The translations under genes and the position numbers were made by a program. Of a stretch of 64,000 bases of DNA, positions 20,298-38,485 are shown one piece after another. How positions within the stretch are numbered: position 1 is the stretch's first letter; every line of letters begins with the position of its first letter. Under the pieces are notes generated by a model. That model was not told where the DNA came from and made no database searches. It saw only the letters and a list, made by a program, of their open reading frames with translations. This DNA is from Hysterangium stoloniferum (taxonomy: Eukaryota > Basidiomycota > Agaricomycetes > Hysterangiales > Hysterangiaceae), in contig WHVD01000042.1 of the NCBI GenBank assembly GCA_015178975.1, positions 363,501 to 427,500 on the forward strand. Reading direction: 5' to 3'.

Positions 20298-20853
20298 TGT
20301 TACGACCCATTCCCAGATGTTTCAATATCCGACTTCCAATCTCTGACTATGGAACATCATAGTTACCGTATCATCCACGTTCTTCCCTTGTTCCACATTT
20401 GGTAATTTGTCCGTTGACAAGTATTCACTCGTTTGTTTGTTGTATTCCCATTTCGGAATATTGTCTCCCTAATATGTCTTATTGTATTTCCGTTTTAAGA
20501 ACACTTCCATTTCCATCTTATTATGGTCTTAGTTTGTAGTACAATAACGAGTAGACTTATATTAGTTTCCGCAAATTTGTACTTTACCTTAGATCTGATA
20601 TCGACTTAGTTTCTTATTCCTTCTTCTGTCTTTCTGTACGCTCGATATTCAGAACTCTTCGGAACTCTGAATATCCATATCTTCCATCGTAAGTTTCATT
20701 TCTGAAATTAAGGACTTGAGCGTTTGCATAGAGGTGCAGCACATAAGCTGAAGCTGACGTCCTGACCCTATCCGATAGTTCCCGACTTCCCGGTGACTTT
20801 CCAATAGTTCCGGAATAAGTTCCCGACACGGCACTTAACAGTATATCAGATCT
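20298..20853 (+). promoter_or_regulatory. 5' LTR promoter and self-priming PBS of element 1
   Basis: A TATATTA box lies near 20551-20557. About 35 nt on is AGATCTGATAT (20591-20601), the presumed RNA 5' end. Two bases after the LTR end (20840) lies ATATCAGATCT (20843-20853), its exact complement. This 11-nt pairing and 2-nt gap match the Tf1/sushi self-priming design; no tRNA complement is needed. The stem-loop motif at 20728-20762 falls in the transcribed leader. Confidence 0.7.
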
Positions 20854-23800
20854 CAACTCTGCGACTCGCTCATCATGGGTCCCAAACGCAAAGCTGCCAA
20901 AGGACCATCCCAACTTCAATCCCCATTGCAACTTTACACCACTCAATCTGAAACCCCAATTCAGCCAACAACATCAGCTTCAGTTGAAGAAGTTACCGAG
21001 GAGATTACCGAGGTAATGAAGGACCCCAATGTTCCCCACACTTCCAACAACGAAGCAGAAGATCAGCTGGAGACATCGAAAAAGCAATCTTCCGATGAAC
21101 CGACTGAAATGTTGTTTATCAACTCCATTGTGAAATTTGCTGACTACTTGAAATCTGCTGAGGATAGTAAAGAATCATCCCGCACCAGAGTCAAAGAACC
21201 TGAACCATTTACCGGCAAGGATCTGAAAAAATTGAAGAATTTCCTTCTCCAATGCCATTTCAGTTTCCATGATCGACCCACTGCATTTAAATCCGACAGT
21301 CGAAAAGTCAATTTCATGCTCTCTTAACTCAAGGATACCGCTCAAGATTGGTTCGAACCCGGACTATCTGGAATATCCGACGAGACACCCGTATGGCTCG
21401 ATGACTGGGACGCTTTTGTGGAAGAACTGGAAACTAATTTCGGACCTTACGATCAAACCGGCGAAGTGGAAAATGAATTAATGACGCTCAAGATGAAGGA
21501 CAATCAACGAGTTTCTGATTATCTCATCAAGTTCAATACCCTCGCCGCACATTGTGGATGGGACGATTCCGCCCTCAGACACCATTTCTATATGGGACTT
21601 CCATCATGCCTTAAAGACGAGATCTGCAAAGATGGAAAGCCGAAAACTCTCCAACTCATGCGGATTAAAGCTCAAACATCCGATGCCCGTTATTGGGAAC
21701 GAAAAGCCGAGGTCTCTCGTGAGAACCCTCCAGCATTCTCAGAATAACAAGGCATCGACTAGCAAGTCTTCCGGCAACAACTCAGGCAATAACACCGGTA
21801 ACTCTGGCACTAATACTGGCAAATCAAACTCCGACCGGAAGAAAGACAAGAAATCCAACAAGGAAAAACAGTCAACTTCCGACAAACCTGACATTTCCCA
21901 TTTGTTGGGCACCGACGGTAAACTCACCCCGAAGGAGAAACAATGACGTATGGACAATGACCTCTGCCTTTTCTGCAGGGAAGGCGGACACAAGGTTTCC
22001 GACTGTACCCTTAAATCTAACTCTTCCAAGGCCCGCGCAGCAACTTCCACTACGACTACAACGTCCAAGGAAAAACCCACCACGGAGTCGAAAAAAGAGT
22101 AAGCAACCCTCCGGAATCTGCACGGACAGAGGGTTGCGTTGACTCTCTCCATGTTTCCGAGGTTATCCGTCTCAACGTGTCGGCTCTCTCTAATCCTGAT
22201 TCATTATTTGTAAAACTCATTTCTGACTTTCTTGGAAATTTAGTGTTCTGAGCTCTGATAGATTCCGGCTCCACACACTGTTTTGTAGATACCACCTTTG
22301 CCACGAAACATAATCTGAAACTCCATTCTGTTCCCGCAATTTCCTTGTGTTTGTTTAATGGCACTAGCAATACGGCAATTACCCAAGCCTGCAACATGTC
22401 TATCTGGTTCCCTTGTGGAACATCCCAGATGGTTACTTTTTTCGTAACACAGTTGGACTCTGGCTGTTCGGTAGTTCTTGGATACAACTGGCTCACCCGA
22501 TATAATCCGTTGATTGACTGGGTATTGGGCAGTATTAATTTCCGGATTCCCGACACTTTGGTTCCTCCTGCAGCATCTCTTCTGGCCAATGCCTTTTCGG
22601 CATCAGCGGCATCTCTGGCTTCTACCGAAACCTCTGTGCCTCCAAAAATCTCTCTCATCAACGCTTCGGCATTTGTTAGGGCAAGTAAACTGGATGGCTC
22701 ACAGTGTTTTTCGATCAGCTTAAAAGTTGATGAAGCATCTGGACATTTTGCGACTCCAGAATTATCTGAGCTAAAAGCCGACCTGGAAGGAGTTCCCGAA
22801 AAAATACCATGATTTTGTGGACATTTTCAGTAAGCAAAAAAGCTGACAGGCTTGCACCACATAGGCCCTACGACTTAAAAATCGATATTGAGCCCAGTTC
22901 AAACCCTCTGTTAGGACCTATTTACCCATTATCCCAATCGGAACTTTTGTCTATTTGGGAGTTCCTGGATGAACATCTGTCGATAGGTTTTATCCGTCCC
23001 TCAAAGTCTCCGTATGGAGCACCTGTCCTTTTCGTCCGAAAGAAGGATGGCTCCCTTCGACTCTGTGTCGATTTCAGAGGATTAAATTCCATCACACGGA
23101 AAGATAAGTATCCACTTCCACTCGTTACCGATTTACTCGATGCCCCACAGAAAGCTCGAATCTACACCAAAATAGACCTCAAACACACCTATCATTTGGT
23201 CCGAATTGCCGAGGGCGATGAATGGAAAACTGCCTTTTGAACTCGCTATGGATCCTTTGAATGGTTGGTTATGCCGTTCAGCCTTACCAATGTCCCTTCC
23301 ACTTTTCAACATTTTGTTAATGATATATTTTCCGACATGCTTGACGTATGTGTTATAGTCTATTTGGACGACATTTTGGTATTTTCCGAGGATCCCGCTC
23401 TTCACGACGAACAGGTCCGTGAAGTTTTCTGAAGACTCCGTAAAAACGGTCTTTTCGCCAACGGTAAAAAATGCTACTTTGACATGGATTCTATCGAATA
23501 CTTAGGTTTCATTATCGGACCTGATGGTCTCTGTATGGATGAAACCAAGGTTCAAGTTGTCCACAACTGGCCTGAACCACGGAAAGTCAAGGATATTCAG
23601 TCATTTTTAGGTTTTGCCAACTTTTACCGTTGTTTTATTCGGAACTACTTGGATATTACAGTACCACTCACTTGTCTTACCCGTAAAACTCAACCATGGG
23701 TCTTTGACGACAAATGCCGCTCCGCCTTCCAGACTTTAAAAAATGCTTTCACTTCTGCCCCGATTCTTTCCCATTGTAAACCTGATGTTCCGATCATTGT

Positions 23801-25881
23801 GGAAACCGATGCTTCCAATTATGCAATTGCCATGATTCTTTCCATTCAAGATTCTGACAGTGAAATTCATCCAGTCACATTTTTTTCTTGGACACTGAAA
23901 GTGTCCGAACTCAACTACGATGTTCATGATAAGGAACGTTTGGCAATTTTTGAAGCTTTCAAGCATTGGTGCCATTATCTCAAAGGTTTCGCAACTCCCA
24001 TTGATGTTGTTACCGATCACAAAAACCTCAAATATTTTTCCACCACTAAACTTTTAACCCACCGGCAGGCCCGCTGGTCTGAATTCCTTTCCGCTTTCAA
24101 CATGATTATCCATTTCCGACCCGGACGTCTTGGTGGAAAACCAGATGCCATGACTCGACAATGGGACGTCTATCCTAAAGAGGGGGAAAGTAACTATGCC
24201 GTTGTTAATCCGCATAACTTAAAACCGGTTTTTACAATGCAACAACTTTCCGCATCTATTCGAGCAACTTCCCTCTACTATCCAATTATGCGTAGCGTCA
24301 TGATTATGGACATTGAGCAATTACATCAAGATATCCTTTCCGCACTCACTTCCGATCCGGTTCTCAAGCCACACTTAGAAGTTCCCGATAATCCCAACCA
24401 ACCCCGATGGTCACAAGACTCTCAAGGTTTTATCCGTCTCGATGGACGTATCTACGTTCCAGATTCCAACAATCTCCGACTCCACGTACTTCAGTATAAA
24501 CACGATCATCCGATCTCTGGACATTACGGCATTAACAATACTCTTGGTTTAATCTGCAGAGAATATACTTGGCCCAACCTCCGAGATTTCGTAACCCAGT
24601 TCTGTAAGTCATGCACCACCTGCTTACGCTCCAAGACCCAGAGGCATAAGCCGTATGGCCTTCTCAAGCAACTCCCGATACCAGAAAAACCCTGGAACTC
24701 AATTTCCATGGATTTTATCGAACAACTCCTGACTCCCGAAGGCTTTACATCCATTCTAGTTGTTGTGGATCGATTCTCGAAACAAGGCATTTTCATACCC
24801 ACTCATGATACAATCATGTCCTTACAATTTGCGGAAGTTTTCATTATTCACGTATTTTCCAAACACGGAGTTCCTTCTCACGTAACTTCCAATCAAGGCT
24901 CCAAGTTTGTCTCCCATTTCTTCCAGGCCCTCGGAAAAGCTCTCGACATGAAACTACACTTCACCTCAGGATATCACCCGGAAGGTGATGGACAAATGGA
25001 ACGTGTAAATCAAACATTGGAACAATACCTCTGCATCTATTGCAATTATCAACAGGACAACTGGAAATCCCTTCTCCCGATCGCGGAATTCGCCTACAAT
25101 AACTCTCTGAATGCAACTACCGGCATATCTCCTTTTTTCGCCAACAAAGGCTATAATCTAAATCTCACTGTACATTCCGAATGAGATTTGGTTTCTGTTC
25201 GTGCTCAAGAATTTATTACCGACCTCGACGAATTACATCAAGAACTTTGGAAAGCTATTTCTTCCCCACAGGAATATTATCAACGTTCCACAGACAAAAA
25301 CAGGATCCCGCCTCCTAATTTTAAATTGGTGATCAGGTTTTTGTAAAAGCTCAATTCTTCCATACTACCTGACCTTCTAAAAACTCGCTGAGAAATTCTT
25401 AGGCCCTTTTGAAATTATAGCACAAGCCAGTTCACTCTCATGGACTCTCCGACTTCCTGATAGTATGCAAGCAGTTCATCCTGTTTTCCACGTTTCCATG
25501 TTAGAACCCTGTGTTCCTAACAAAATCCCGGAATGTATTCAACCTCCGTCCCCTCTGGTCATCATTGATGGAGAACCCGAATTTGAAGTTTCCGAAATTT
25601 TGGATTCTAAAATCGACAATCACTGACATACTTGTAAATTGCTCTATTTAGTCAAATGGGCAGGTTATGAAGGTACCGACGAGGAAACTTCATGGATATT
25701 GGCCACAGAACTCGGACACACTATGGAAATTGTTACTGATTTCCACACAGCTTATCCAAGCAAACCCGGACCTTTATCATCACTCTGACCATTTCCGTTT
25801 TCTTTCTGTTCAGTTTCCGACACTTCTGTTACTTCCGATATCACACTCATTTTGAATCATACAAGTCAAATTTATTTGCAT

Positions 25882-27004
25882 CTAGTTTAAAGTCTCTGAC
25901 ACTCCAAATCCTCCTTCCATTTCCATTCCCATATCATCTGCAATCTCCACACTTTCCACCATATCCTGTACCTCTTCATGCCCATTTCCTGACTCCCACC
26001 TTTTCTCGACACATTCTGCCAATGGATCATTAGGCTGTTCCCGTGCCTTATCAGAAAATCTCTTGGAAACTGCGATCACACCAATGCTAACCATTACCTT
26101 CTCCAGGAATTCGTTTTGTCTCCAGAAATTTCGGACCAACGAATGGAAACCTTTTTCCTGGATCTCATTATGGCAATCTAGAGTATCCCGCATTTTCATA
26201 ACTTCCATCCCGATAAAGACTAACGCGTCAATGGTGTCCTTGAGGAGCTCCATGCCCATACTATCCATTTTTGGCACCTCAGTTTCCGCAGCTTTAGCCG
26301 CTCCCGAACCTTCCACATCGTTAGTTTTCTGAGCCTTCTCACCTTTTGGAACCCACTTCGAGGCGAGAGTGCATGGAAGTTTAAGAACTGCGCAGGGATA
26401 GCAAGTTCCACCCCATTTTACCTTCTGTTTCCAACACATCATAGTCTGTATGGAACATCGATAACATGGATTTTCATGGACCACTTCCATCCGTTCCGGA
26501 GCCTTGACCTTTGGCTTCTGTTTCGGAAGTTAATCAATACCGGTCTTTCTTGTAGATGCACTTACTTTAGGACTTGAAGGTCCAGCCTCTCCCTCTACTT
26601 CCACCGACACGGCTTTTCGCTGTACCCAATAGTTATCGGTTGGAACCACAGAAATTATGGATATCACTTACCTTTCCTTCCCTTATCTCCTCACGTTTCT
26701 TCGCCACCTCTGACTCCCGTTGTAATTTTTCCGCCTCTTCCTTCTTTTTCTGAGCCTCTGCCGTTTTCCGGATCCACACTTCCTTCTCTGCCTTCGCCCG
26801 CTCCAACTCCTGTTTTTCTGCCTCTTCCGCATCTTTCAACTCCTGCATCAACACCTTTTCCTCCTCCACCTGTTGTCGCTTCAACTCCTCCATCCTTTGT
26901 CATTTTTGTTGAAGTTCTGCGACCTTCGACATTTTCTGAAGCATGGCAATTTCGGTATCTGAATCTTCCGGGGTAGTGATGAATAGAGGCTGATGAATCA
27001 ACAT
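25882..27004 (-). CDS. Antisense gene in Gypsy B: coiled coil and Zn2Cys6-like cluster
   Basis: A gene-like unit on the strand opposite to gag-pol, between the chromodomain and the 3' LTR. The ATG at 27004 starts MLIHQPLFITTPEDSDTEIA. A long charged coiled coil follows (about 26680-26895; runs of E, K, Q and A such as EEEKVLMQELKDAEEAEKQE). Candidate GTAAGT splice donors lie at the ends of the coiled-coil block and of a short proline/serine block (about 26550-26620), suggesting introns. The last block (25882-26490) contains six cysteines spaced C-x2-C-x6-C-x10-C-x2-C-x6-C, the Zn(II)2Cys6 spacing of fungal transcription factors, then an alpha-helical acidic region. A TATAAAAA box lies 50 nt upstream. 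It may encode a nuclear DNA-binding regulator. Whether it is expressed, or still whole, is unknown. Confidence 0.55.
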
Positions 27005-27052
27005 ACAAGTTGTGGATAAAGAAACAAAAATGTTAATTCAAATATTTGGAGG

Positions 27053-27060
27053 TTTTTATA
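27053..27060 (-). promoter_or_regulatory. TATA box of the antisense gene
   Basis: The minus strand reads TATAAAAA here, about 50 nt before the ATG at 27004 and just inside the 3' LTR boundary. The older copy has the same TATAAAAA at 38478-38485 in the same place, though much of the surrounding sequence has drifted. Confidence 0.55.
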
Positions 27061-27188: not shown

Positions 27189-28576
27189 TGTTACGACCCA
27201 TTCCCGGATGTTTCAATATCCGACTTCTGATCTCTGACTACGGAACATCACAGTTACCGTATCATCTGTGTTCTTCCCTTGTTCCACATTTGGTAATTTG
27301 TCTGTTGACAAGTATTCACTCATTTGTTTGTTGTATTCCCATTTCAGAATATTGTCTCCCTAATATGTCTTATTGTATTTCCGTTTTAAGAACACTTCCG
27401 TTTCCGTCTTATTATGGTCTTAGTTTGTAGTACAATAACGAGTAGACTTATATTAGTTTCCATGAATTTGTACTTTACCTTAGATCTGATATCGACTTAG
27501 TTTCTTATTCCTTCTTCTGTCTTTCTGTATGCTCGATATGTTACAACCGGACAATCCCACCGGACTCCGGGCACTAACCCGTACGCCCCCACGCGCTACA
27601 AGCACCAATCGTCTGTTTATAGGATTTCCCACCCGGACTCCGTTACGTCAAGACTCGTTACGTTCGACCTCATTACGACACATATCAGTCACCGGACTTC
27701 CCCCAGACTCCGTCTCTGTCTATGTCCATCTTTGTCCCACACATCAGTCACCGGTCCCCGCTTAGAATCCCGTCACCACTCTAATCGAGCCCCGTTCCCG
27801 TTTTAGTCAAATGACCTGTCACGATTTAGGACTCCGCTCCCGCTCCATTTCCCATTATGGGTTATGCTTTGTCACGATTCGGACTCTGCTCTGTTCCGTT
27901 CCATTCCTAACACCAATTTGGTGTTTACTATTCCCGTTTTATGTTTTGTTAGTTTCATTTTGTTATTACTGGAATTGGTATGTCATGCATTCCACGGTCT
28001 ATATAAACTGGCAGATGTTGTACATACAATCCAGTCAGAAAATTAGCTTAGATTCCCCCCAGTAATCTAATAATATTTTCCACTCTAAAACCTTACTCGA
28101 TTCACATCGCTCGCACTAGTCGGAGCCCACGGGCTCCGGCGCATCTATCTCTCTCAACCAACTCGACTCACGACCCACGACCTCTGACTTACAACCCACG
28201 ACCCCCGACTTATGACCTACGACCCACGAACCCCGCCCGGACTCCCCGGGATCCCCGTCCATCCATTTGAAATTGGACAACACGATCTAGCGAGGGCGCA
28301 GCCTATAAGCTGAAGCCAAGTCCTACCGGATATCCCGCGGGTTTCTCTGGAAACCCGGCCTGTGTGTGTATCCTAACACGATATTTGGAACTCTTTGGAA
28401 CTCTGAATATCCATATCTTCCATCGTAAGTTTCATTTCTGAAATTAAGGACTTGAGCGTTTGCGTAGAGGTGCAGCACATAAGCTGAAGCCGACATCCTG
28501 ACCCTATCCAATAGTTCCCAACTTCCCGGTGACTTTCCGATAGTTCTGGAATAAGTTCCCAACACGGCACTTAACA
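27189..28576 (+). mobile_element. 3' LTR of element 1, split by solo LTR A
   Basis: Preceded by a purine-rich tract, CAGGGGGGTAC. LTR sequence occupies 27189-27538 and 28384-28576, totalling 543 bp like the 5' LTR once the CGATA duplication is discounted. It ends GGCACTTAACA and is followed by GATTG. Confidence 0.92.
27539..28378 (+). mobile_element. Solo LTR, family A, youngest copy
   Basis: Runs TGTTACAACCGG to GTATCCTAACA with the perfect duplication CGATA (27534-27538 and 28379-28383). It is rich in CpG. A TATATAA box lies at 28000-28006 and the stem-loop motif at 28290-28323. As it sits in the 3' LTR of element 1, it is one of the most recent events in the window. Confidence 0.95.
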
Positions 28577-29941
28577 GATTGACAACAAGGGGGTCTGGAA
28601 TGTCCAGTCAGAGTCTGGTGAGTGGTTTGTATGATAGAGTCAAATACCTGTAGGATGGGTTCTGGATCCTGGTGGGTTTCTTGGTCCTAACACATGGGTC
28701 CTAAACATAAAGCTACTAAAGGACCATCTCAACTTCAATCCCTTTTGCAACTCTACACCACCCAGCCTGAACCTCCAGCTCAGCCCATCACATCAGGTTT
28801 GGAAAGTTGTTTCATTGAAGTTCCTGAAATTCCTGAGGATTCTGAACATGATGAGGAAAACCCAGATTCTCCCATCAAACCCCAGGAACAATCTACCAAA
28901 GATCTGACCATACTACTCCTCAAGTTCCTTGGAAACTTCTTGGAATATCCAAAAACAGCCAATAACAATCTCAAAGACAGAGAACCATCTCAGACAACTG
29001 TCAAAGAACCTGAACCATTTTCCAGCAAAGATCTGAAGAAATTGAATAATTTCCTCCTTCAATGCCATTTTAGTTTCTGTTACAGACCTTCCACATTCAA
29101 AGCTGACAGCCAAAAATTCAACATTGTGCTCTCTTATCTCAAAGATTCCACACAGCATTGGTTTGAACCTAGATTCTCCAGATTATCTGACAAGACACCC
29201 ACTTGGCCTGATGATTGGGATGCATTTGTTGAAGAACTGGAAACTAACTTTGGACTTGTGATCAATCTGGTGATGCAGAAAATGAACTTATGGCACTCAA
29301 AATGAAGGACAATGAATGAGTTTCTGAATATCTTGTCAAGTTCAACACTCTCACTATGTGCTGTGGTTGGGATGATTCCACCCTAAGACACCATTTTTAT
29401 ATAAGTCTTCCATCTTGCCTCAAAGATGATATCTGCAAAGAAGGAAAGCCAAAAACTCTCCAACTCATATGGGTGAAAGCTCAGAAATATGACACCTGAT
29501 ATTGGGAACACCATGTGGAAGTTTCCTGAGAAAATCTGACAGAATGCACTCAAAGCAACAAGGTGTCAAGTAGCAAGTCTTCTGGCAATAACCCTAGCAA
29601 TAACTCAGGCAACTCTGGCAATAATAATAATGGCAAATCAAGTTCCAATCAGAAGAATGACAAGACTGCAAATAGCAATAAGGGCAAACAGTCAACTTCC
29701 AAAAAACCCAACATATCCCATTTGTTAGGTTCTGATGGTAAACTCACACACACCATGGATATTGACCTCTGCCTATTCTGCAGAAAAGGTGGATATAAGG
29801 TTTCCAAATTCACTGTCAAGGCAAACTCTTCCAAGGCTCATGCAGCAACTACCTCCATGGCAACTATGCAAAGGAGAAACCCACCATAAAGTTGAAAAAA
29901 GAATAAGCAACCCTCTGGATTCCACACAGACAGAGGGTTGC

Positions 29942-37327: not shown

Positions 37328-38485
37328 CTACATTTCTTTTGAAGTTTCCACCTCTCCAAATCTTAGCTCCTCAGCCACAACTTCCATTTCCCCCTGAACC
37401 TCATCCTTATTTCCCAGCTCCCTCTGAAACTTCAACTTTTCCTCAAGCTCCATGATGACACCATTGTCTGACCTGGAACCTTCTTCTCCCAGTTCTTCCC
37501 ATGCATATTTTTTGGTTACTCCCATAATGCTGATACTGACCATCACCTTTTCCAAGGTTTTGATCTATCACCCTAAAACCCTTAACCTAAATCTGGTTAT
37601 TGAGTTCCATAACTTCCTGCACTTTCAATAATTCTTCAGCATTTGAAGCATGGCATTTACATTGTCCTGCAGAAGATTCTCATCATCACATTTCCTGTGT
37701 GCTAGGTTGAGTTTCTGATGCTCCAGCAGCTTCCAATGGTCCTGCAGCTTCTGTTTTTTCCATCTTCCCAGTCTTCCCCATTTTCTTCACCATTTTTCAA
37801 GACCTGTTTCCCAGCAAGTGTACAGCACATGGAACCTTGTTAAAAGTGCAAGGGTAACAAGAAGCCCTCCACTTAGCCTTCTGCTTTCCACACTGGACTC
37901 CCCAGTCCTCACATCATGTACATGGGACCACATTGATCTCATCAAGATGCTCAAGAACCCTCACCTTTTGTTTCTGCTCTGGATATCAGCCACAAATCCC
38001 AGACTCTGAAAACAAAGACTTACTTTTGGACTCAAAGGCCTGGCATCTTCCTTTTCATTTAACTCATTGGCTTTTCACTACTCTCTAATAAACAGAATAT
38101 TAAATGGAAATTGAAAACCAGTAATCACTTTTCCTTCCTGTTTCTTTTTCAACCTTATCAACTCCTCCTCTGCCTCCTTCTGCTTTTTCTTCAACTCTGC
38201 CCATGCCCTCCACTCTTCTGCTAGTTTCTTTTCCACCTCAATCCATTCCTTTTCCCAATTTTCCACATCTTCTGCCTCCTGTAACTCACACATCAACTCC
38301 TTCATCTCCTCTTCCTCAACTCCTCCATCCTTTGTTATTTCATCTTTAGTTTCTCAACCTTTGACATTTTGTAGATTTCAGTGTTGGAAGATTCAGGAGT
38401 TTTGGTAAAAATAGGAAGGTGGATTGACATATAAGTTCAGGTTAAAGAAAAGAAATCACTAATTCGAACTTCTTGGGTTTTTATA
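37328..38485 (-). pseudogene. Fossil of the antisense gene in element 2
   Basis: The older B element keeps the same antisense unit in the same place: TATAAAAA at 38478-38485, a start region near 38432 (MSIHLPIFTKTPESSNTEI), a coiled-coil block at 38078-38305 (EEVE/KKKQKEAEEEL-type) and an acidic tail block at 37328-37555 beginning EKVMVSISIMGVTKKY, matching EKVMVSIGVIAVSKRF in the younger copy. The cysteine block is decayed. Broken in several places. Confidence 0.6.

Follow-up and report, generated by a model that had tools for sequence, protein, structure and literature searches.

An antisense, apparently spliced gene for a six-cysteine protein in a Ty3/Gypsy retrotransposon family of Hysterangium stoloniferum

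A Ty3/Gypsy retrotransposon family of the fungus Hysterangium stoloniferum carries, on the strand opposite to gag-pol and next to the 3' LTR, what the aligned copies strongly support as a genuine, spliced, protein-coding gene. We regard it as nearly certain that this is a real protein gene under selection. Its predicted product of ~340 residues would consist of a conserved N-terminus, a charged helix, a six-cysteine cluster and a conserved C-terminal part. The best model for this protein, to which we assign a probability of roughly 0.55, is a DNA-binding regulator that the element encodes and that acts on the element's LTR. The family was traced from a window of 64,000 nucleotides (the whole stretch of DNA analysed) through the genome that contains it, which comprises 111 Mb in 554 contigs and whose Zn2Cys6 proteins and short introns fit a fungus.

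Results

Host element and structure of the antisense gene

The element concerned (element A) shows the order gag, protease, RT/RNase H and integrase, bounded by LTRs, as established by Pfam searches and LTR matching. Its 5' LTR lies at 20298-20841 (+) and gag at 21328-21747 (+; Retrotrans_gag, E 1.5e-13), followed at 22252-25785 (+) by the pieces of a pol that is broken in the window copy and encodes protease, RT/RNase H, integrase, an SH3-like Tf2-1 domain and a chromodomain. Pfam matches to the window pol include RVP_2 (1.7e-7), RT_RNaseH (2.8e-31), Integrase_H2C2 (1.4e-16) and SH3_Tf2-1 (6.4e-15). Element A is a Ty3/Gypsy chromodomain element, with a Chromo match that is weak in this broken copy (E 8e-4; 19.7 bits, below the curated cut-off of 25.1). 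The first part of the 3' LTR was matched at 27189-27539 (+) and its remainder at 28379-28577, past an insertion of ~840 bp (27540-28378) that interrupts the LTR and contains tandem repeats of 7, 21 and 28 nt of the CGACCCA type at 28164-28235. The antisense gene lies between the end of pol with its chromodomain (~25790) and a G-rich tract preceding the 3' LTR.

Alignment of copies resolves the minus-strand gene into three exons (27004-25882) separated by introns of 52 and 48 nt, both in phase 0. Exon 1 (26672-27004, -) opens with an ATG (27004-27002, -) that is present in 61/63 copies and encodes a conserved 34-codon N-terminus and then a highly charged, helix-like stretch; in the window copy it is interrupted by an in-frame stop. 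Intron 1 (26620-26671, -; GTAAGT...TACAG) has a GTRAGT donor in 57/63 copies, the acceptor TACAG in 53/63 and CAG in 61/63, and contains stop codons in every one of the three frames. Exon 2 (26566-26619, -) comprises 18 codons and is followed by intron 2 (26518-26565, -; GTAAGT...AACAG), whose GTRAGT donor is found in 61 and whose AACAG acceptor in 59 of the 63 copies. Exon 3 (25882-26517, -) encodes the six-cysteine cluster, a variable linker and the conserved C-terminal part and ends in TAG; a TAG or TAA is kept at this place in 61/63 copies. The TATA box TATAAAAA (27060-27053, -), exact in 57/63 copies, is the candidate core promoter of the antisense gene. An earlier note on this DNA had claimed such an antisense layout, and the TATA box, the ATG, two GTAAGT donors and the cysteine motif were all found, the donors, which the note had offered as candidates, now being marked as intron boundaries by their conservation.

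Indels common to at least three copies measured 3, 9, 12, 21, 30 and, once, 29 nt in the exons; intron 2 has four, all of 1 nt, and those of intron 1 are of 1 or 5 nt. The 29-nt indel of exon 1 (4 copies) does not divide by three and could be the 30-nt indel aligned differently. When all distinct indels in the 63 copies were counted, shared or not, exons and introns were not clearly separated. The RNA through which an LTR element multiplies is that of the sense strand, from which introns in antisense orientation are not spliced out; the conservation of introns readable on the minus strand therefore appears to fit a gene transcribed from that strand. We infer both transcription and splicing of the antisense gene.

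Copies in the genome

The 63 aligned copies comprise the window copy and 62 fetched ones, namely the best 39 DNA matches, 20 more divergent copies and the three most divergent (L068-L070); the family-2 loci L071-L073, described below, were excluded from this set. Since 23 of the 63 (the 20 divergent copies and L068-L070) were picked for an exon 3 without stop and the other 40 were not, counts of openness over all 63 are biased, and we give those for the unpicked copies alongside. All three exons are open in frame in 9/63 copies (2/40 unpicked) and all are stop-free in 11/63 (3/40), and exon 3 by itself is stop-free in 42/63 (19/40). Exon 3 is matched at 72-100% identity in at least 150 places of the genome (853 candidates at first look), and 109 of the 150 matches listed have no internal stop. 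Exact sites encoding the peptide KQKVKWG number at least 228 in the genome, compared with 0 in the reversed control; some of these sites and of the exon-3 sites may be allelic contigs. Among 59 loci, the gene is flanked by pol on one side and an LTR on the other in 52, whereas six are without pol and one without an LTR in the fetched piece.

Several copies on separate contigs are nearly identical (L024/L025, L021/L022/L023 and L019/L033, 98.7-100% alike), and the sites G000:C146:1965 and C456:373, likewise on separate contigs, gave equal search scores; all of these may represent allelic contigs, if two nuclei were assembled, or else segmental duplicates. Throughout the 63 copies CpG has heavily decayed to TG/CA, whether in exons, in introns or in flanks, a pattern that suggests cytosine methylation of these repeats in the host.

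Selection on the antisense frame

Variants were split into private ones, which occur in one copy only, are mostly post-insertion and are expected to be neutral, and shared ones, which occur in at least four copies and were mostly inherited via transposing ancestors. In the antisense frame of the 63 copies, private variants look neutral (N/S 360/91, per-site ratio 1.06), in contrast to shared variants (N/S 188/207, ratio 0.24; Fisher p 6.8e-23). The difference was found again when CpG-type changes were left out (1.07 private vs. 0.16 shared, p 7e-27), when copies at least 97% alike were dropped (57/63 kept; 1.11 vs. 0.24) and in the 40 unpicked copies only (0.84 vs. 0.28, p 4.8e-9); the corresponding values for the 23 picked copies only were 0.67 and 0.27. 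Over the first 35 codons of exon 1 the shared-variant ratio was 0.10. Pairwise NG86 comparisons of exon 3 among 17 chosen open copies (136 pairs) gave a median dN/dS of 0.24 (range 0.15-0.71). Judged by these ratios, the antisense protein is under purifying selection. The stops common to at least four copies lie, in all but one column, in codons that have a CpG in most or many copies.

Shared-variant ratios were 1.03-1.31 in the two other frames of the gene strand and in two of the three sense frames. In the remaining sense frame, whose third codon positions coincide with those of the gene, the ratio is 0.31 and stops occur in 63/63 copies, by which coding in this frame is ruled out. For the C-terminus of pol in the sense frame (51 rows) the shared N/S was 0.35 and the private N/S 0.36, and for the last part of pol the values were 0.20 vs. 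0.49 (p 0.12); with the private ratio equally low and small counts, pol is not a clean control. Treating the 5' flank as if it were codons gave 0.57, 0.75 and 1.02 for shared variants, so that noncoding frames do not all sit at 1.

The six-cysteine cluster and protein architecture

A six-frame search of the window finds the pattern C-x2-C-x6-C-x10-C-x2-C-x6-C (26371-26466, -) a single time, and none of 20 base-shuffled windows contains it. Its cysteines, from the first to the sixth, are kept in 60, 63, 62, 63, 62 and 62 of the 63 copies, and two further exon-3 cysteines of the window copy, outside the motif, in only 13 and 50. Zn2Cys6 clusters span the spacing range C-x2-C-x6-C-x(5-16)-C-x2-C-x(6-9)-C, within which the antisense cluster falls (PF00172), and from spacing and conservation together the six cysteines likely bind zinc.

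Assignment to the GAL4-type family is a separate matter. An HMM search with Zn_clus (PF00172), proposed in the earlier note, gave no match above the curated cut-off among 24 family members and no hit at all for the window protein; Zn_clus was the commonest Pfam family among these members, at 6/24 for E up to 10, with a best E of 0.89. When hhalign compared the antisense family with 11 true Zn_clus proteins from this genome, the match was weak (probability 20.9, E 0.0011, 16 columns), with the first cysteine triplet of the family falling on the second half of the true cluster. A search of the PDB yielded no sequence relatives at E up to 10, and AlphaFold2, run on the window sequence only (2 and 1 sequences), produced models of low confidence (mean pLDDT 36 and 57). 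Because of the sub-threshold Zn_clus scores, the weak profile match and the low-confidence models, we do not file the protein under PF00172; the Zn2Cys6 identity proposed in the earlier note has partial support, from the spacing and the kept cysteines. The first loop of a typical Zn2Cys6 cluster carries basic residues (CxxCRxxKxKC), most of which are absent from that of the antisense cluster. Mushroom genomes also contain many unannotated proteins with similar CxxC patterns. At G000:C56, C113 and C115, neighbouring Zn_clus matches are clustered, some of them inside open frames of equal length, an arrangement that appears as in tandem cysteine-cluster proteins.

Four residues past the fifth cysteine a lysine is found in 13/13 aligned rows; in L104, a further piece, an arginine stands there. 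If the second triplet is aligned with the first half of Gal4, this lysine would occupy the place of Lys18. In the available text of PMC5559640, Gal4 Lys18 is described as contacting CGG. The register chosen by hhalign and the position of this lysine provide a lead, namely that the halves of the cluster may be swapped relative to GAL4. The cluster also includes a bridge of the form [KR]-Q-K-x-[KR]-W-G.

The charged stretch encoded by exon 1 consists to 65-69% of E, K, R, Q and D (six copies). Its hydrophobic heptad periodicity was not clearly above that of shuffled sequences (median z 0.96, range -0.72 to 2.29, 17 copies), so that what had been called a coiled coil may be either that or a charged single helix.

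Homologues in other elements

A decayed homologue of exon 3, at 30-36% identity, lies in a second Ty3/Gypsy element of the window (37376-37982, -) and retains the six cysteines, identically spaced; a stop in frame separates the first two. In its relatives L071 and L072, cysteines one to five are preserved; by eye, a charged exon is recognisable in L071-L073 and a short middle exon in L073. With L072 as query, at least 149 other places were found at 35-63% identity, many of which coincide with the places of exon-3 matches, and the full motif is present in 5/12 further pieces fetched from these matches. L094 and L096, which have the full motif, were grouped by eye as a third family. Judged from these alignments, divergent homologues with related clusters exist in other elements.

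A CCGANNN array in the LTR

The 3' LTR begins with CCG triplets every 7 bases, forming CCGANNN units. In the window it starts with three CCGANNN-type units and a CGG (27220-27243, +), two of the three units being changed here, and a pattern search located a three-unit array in the 5' LTR (20329-20349, +). In the direction of the antisense gene, its TATA box follows the 3'-LTR array at a distance of 160 bp, and the 5'-LTR array is placed in U3, upstream of gag-pol. We measured 63 arrays at 61 loci, counting the 5' and 3' LTR of the window apart and removing duplicate loci. Whole 7-nt units fit 60/63 arrays, which range from 3 to 24 units, with 46/63 having three units only; the longest fitting array is that of L067 (24 units, 167 nt). 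Arrays beyond the usual three units were also observed at G000:C13:1210337-1210564 and G000:C68:618607-618687. An apparent 255-nt array of L053 was rejected as an artefact of the search pattern, being no multiple of 7, and the start of that LTR shows a short array. Across 250 units the first base is C at a frequency of 0.97, the second C at 0.84, the third G at 0.76 and the fourth A at 1.00, with the other three variable. The first three bases read CCG in 144 units, CCA in 53, CTG in 39 and otherwise in 14, and the CCA and CTG forms are those expected, from the bases that change, of CpG decay of CCG.

In the genome, (CCGANNN)x4 has 324 overlapping matches, compared with 1 for the reversed pattern. 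The 100 pattern rows considered, as listed, collapse to 46 loci, of which 16 lie at an LTR position of the antisense-gene motif, eight at the distance and on the strand of the 3' LTR and eight at those of the 5' LTR; for both positions together the mean over 1000 shifts was 0.13 and the highest count 2. Because the array and the gene are parts of a single element family, finding them together carries no independent weight. At the other 30/46 listed long-array loci no antisense-gene motif is nearby; these could be decayed copies or solo LTRs. At G000:C35:402542 and 408032, two arrays on one strand are separated by 5.5 kb in which no exact gene motif is listed, possibly an element whose gene is lost or mutated.

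The signal lies in the array and not in bulk content: CGG overall is not raised in the 5' LTR of the window (27.6 per kb vs. 26.3 in the internal region), which counts against the array as a site. Inspection by eye found no 7-nt array in the LTRs of the window's second element, L071 and L106, all of which carry the gene; L107 and L108 have no readable LTR start. Zn2Cys6 proteins usually target CGG triplets repeated in direct, inverted or everted orientation, according to the available text of PMC5559640. Tandem arrays can also arise via slippage, without function, a further point against it. We treat the CCG array only tentatively, at clearly under even odds, as the binding site of the antisense protein. 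Given the array, regulation of its own LTR by the antisense protein is plausible.

Discussion

The reading that we prefer, slightly above even odds, makes the antisense protein a regulator of its element that acts on DNA or chromatin. The accessory gene would have a promoter of its own immediately internal to the 3' LTR, run in the direction opposite to gag-pol and yield a transcript that is spliced twice. The protein would be nuclear and DNA-binding, perhaps dimerising via the charged helix, and would act on its own LTR, most likely via the CCGANNN array at the start of U3. As this array lies upstream of the antisense TATA box in the 3' LTR and upstream of gag-pol in the 5' LTR, one protein could tune both the gag-pol promoter and its own. 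Its role might be that of an autoregulatory activator or of an anti-silencing factor in a genome in which these copies lose CpG quickly. Put together, these steps would amount to a self-contained circuit of a zinc-cluster-like antisense regulator and an expandable CCGANNN array serving both promoters, autoregulatory or anti-silencing, a composite that we offer with still more reserve than its binding site. Such a circuit would evolve by gain and loss of array units and would be a retrotransposon counterpart of VANC and its target repeats.

It is unlikely that the protein is instead a factor of the particle or the RNA, whose cluster and charged helix bind element RNA or Gag in packaging, export or assembly, with the CCG array an unrelated slippage array or a host-factor site. 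A charged helix and a cysteine cluster would suit an RNA-binding protein as well, membership of Zn_clus is unproven, the array is missing from the LTRs of some carriers, and RNA-export factors are found among retroviral accessory proteins, as far as the available text of PMC7264820 goes. However, a separate antisense promoter would make expression independent of the genomic RNA, and this appears to suit a regulator better.

We consider equally improbable a protein of the VANC kind, which would recognise a short motif repeated in tandem within its element and remove or block DNA methylation instead of being a classical activator. CpG is strongly decayed in every gene region and flank studied, as methylated repeats would show, and the number of array units varies among copies, much like the VANC target motifs in the portion of PMC5735166 available. 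Yet CpG decay suggests methylation in the past rather than its removal.

Limitation of the element by convergent transcription had also been proposed in the earlier note; here the antisense RNA would pair with gag-pol RNA and the protein would be unimportant. The transcript would indeed converge on pol, and silencing via antisense RNA is considered possible in the available part of PMC7264820. But selection acts on the amino-acid sequence, and introns and cysteines are conserved, whereas RNA alone needs no reading frame; as a main role this proposal is disfavoured and to our minds very improbable. An open frame arisen by chance, or one that only accompanies a sense-strand gene as the low shared N/S of the sense frame with common third positions (0.31) might suggest, is ruled out by the conserved signals (splice sites, ATG, TATA box and cysteines) and frame-specific selection, by the stops of that sense frame in every copy and by divergent homologues that align in the antisense frame.

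The preferred reading, a DNA-binding regulator encoded by the element, can be set beside several known systems. Antisense ORFs (aORFs) of plant Gypsy elements (gene23 of Grande, RIRE2, and Retand with its TRP28 domain) likewise lie antisense between pol and the 3' LTR, are widespread among copies and are suspected to encode a nuclear or DNA-binding regulator, with an own promoter in Grande, and their roles are reported as undetermined in the available text of the two sources (PMC7264820, PMC11963269). Compared with these, the present gene differs in its fungal host, its six-cysteine cluster, its two conserved introns and the CCG array in the LTR. By its features in the alignments, a conserved ORF between pol and the 3' LTR in many copies, it fits the class aORF-3R of Gypsy elements; TRP28 (PF04195) was absent from the Pfam hits at E up to 10 of 24 members. 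With fungal Zn2Cys6 proteins (GAL4-type, PF00172) it has in common the six-cysteine spacing, the lysine after the fifth cysteine and CCG triplets near promoters. Unlike GAL4-type factors, in which the charged helix follows the cluster, the antisense protein has it before the cluster, and it differs further in its sub-threshold Pfam score, in the basic residues mostly missing from its first loop and in being encoded by a retrotransposon.

VANDAL elements are plant DNA transposons. In Arabidopsis their VANC proteins are alike in the idea of a transposon-encoded regulator and in a short motif arranged in variable tandem noncoding arrays, as described in the accessible part of PMC5735166. The CCGANNN array is likewise a short motif in tandem inside the element. 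The protein is unlike VANC, and the fungal element is known from sequence. VANC with its tandem targets is the closest functional parallel. HBZ of HTLV-type retroviruses is a bZIP protein. HBZ and APH-2 are antisense regulatory genes driven from the 3' LTR side, again within the available text of PMC7264820 and PMC11963269; they encode a different protein, in a vertebrate virus.

Antisense ORFs at the same place in plant Gypsy elements are known, and what appears new is the six-cysteine protein type in a fungal element. Searches of an open-licence literature collection listed no account of fungal Gypsy elements with an antisense gene of the zinc-cluster-like type; the earlier note, too, had known of no described family with an antisense Zn2Cys6 protein. 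One family here combines hundreds of copies, clear purifying selection, a candidate zinc-binding domain and a candidate target array, and through this combination the function of antisense genes of LTR retrotransposons becomes directly testable in a simple heterologous system. By this finding, plant elements would not be the only ones with antisense accessory genes. Should the array be what the protein targets, the family would join VANC as an example of a transposon whose regulator goes together with tandem target motifs.
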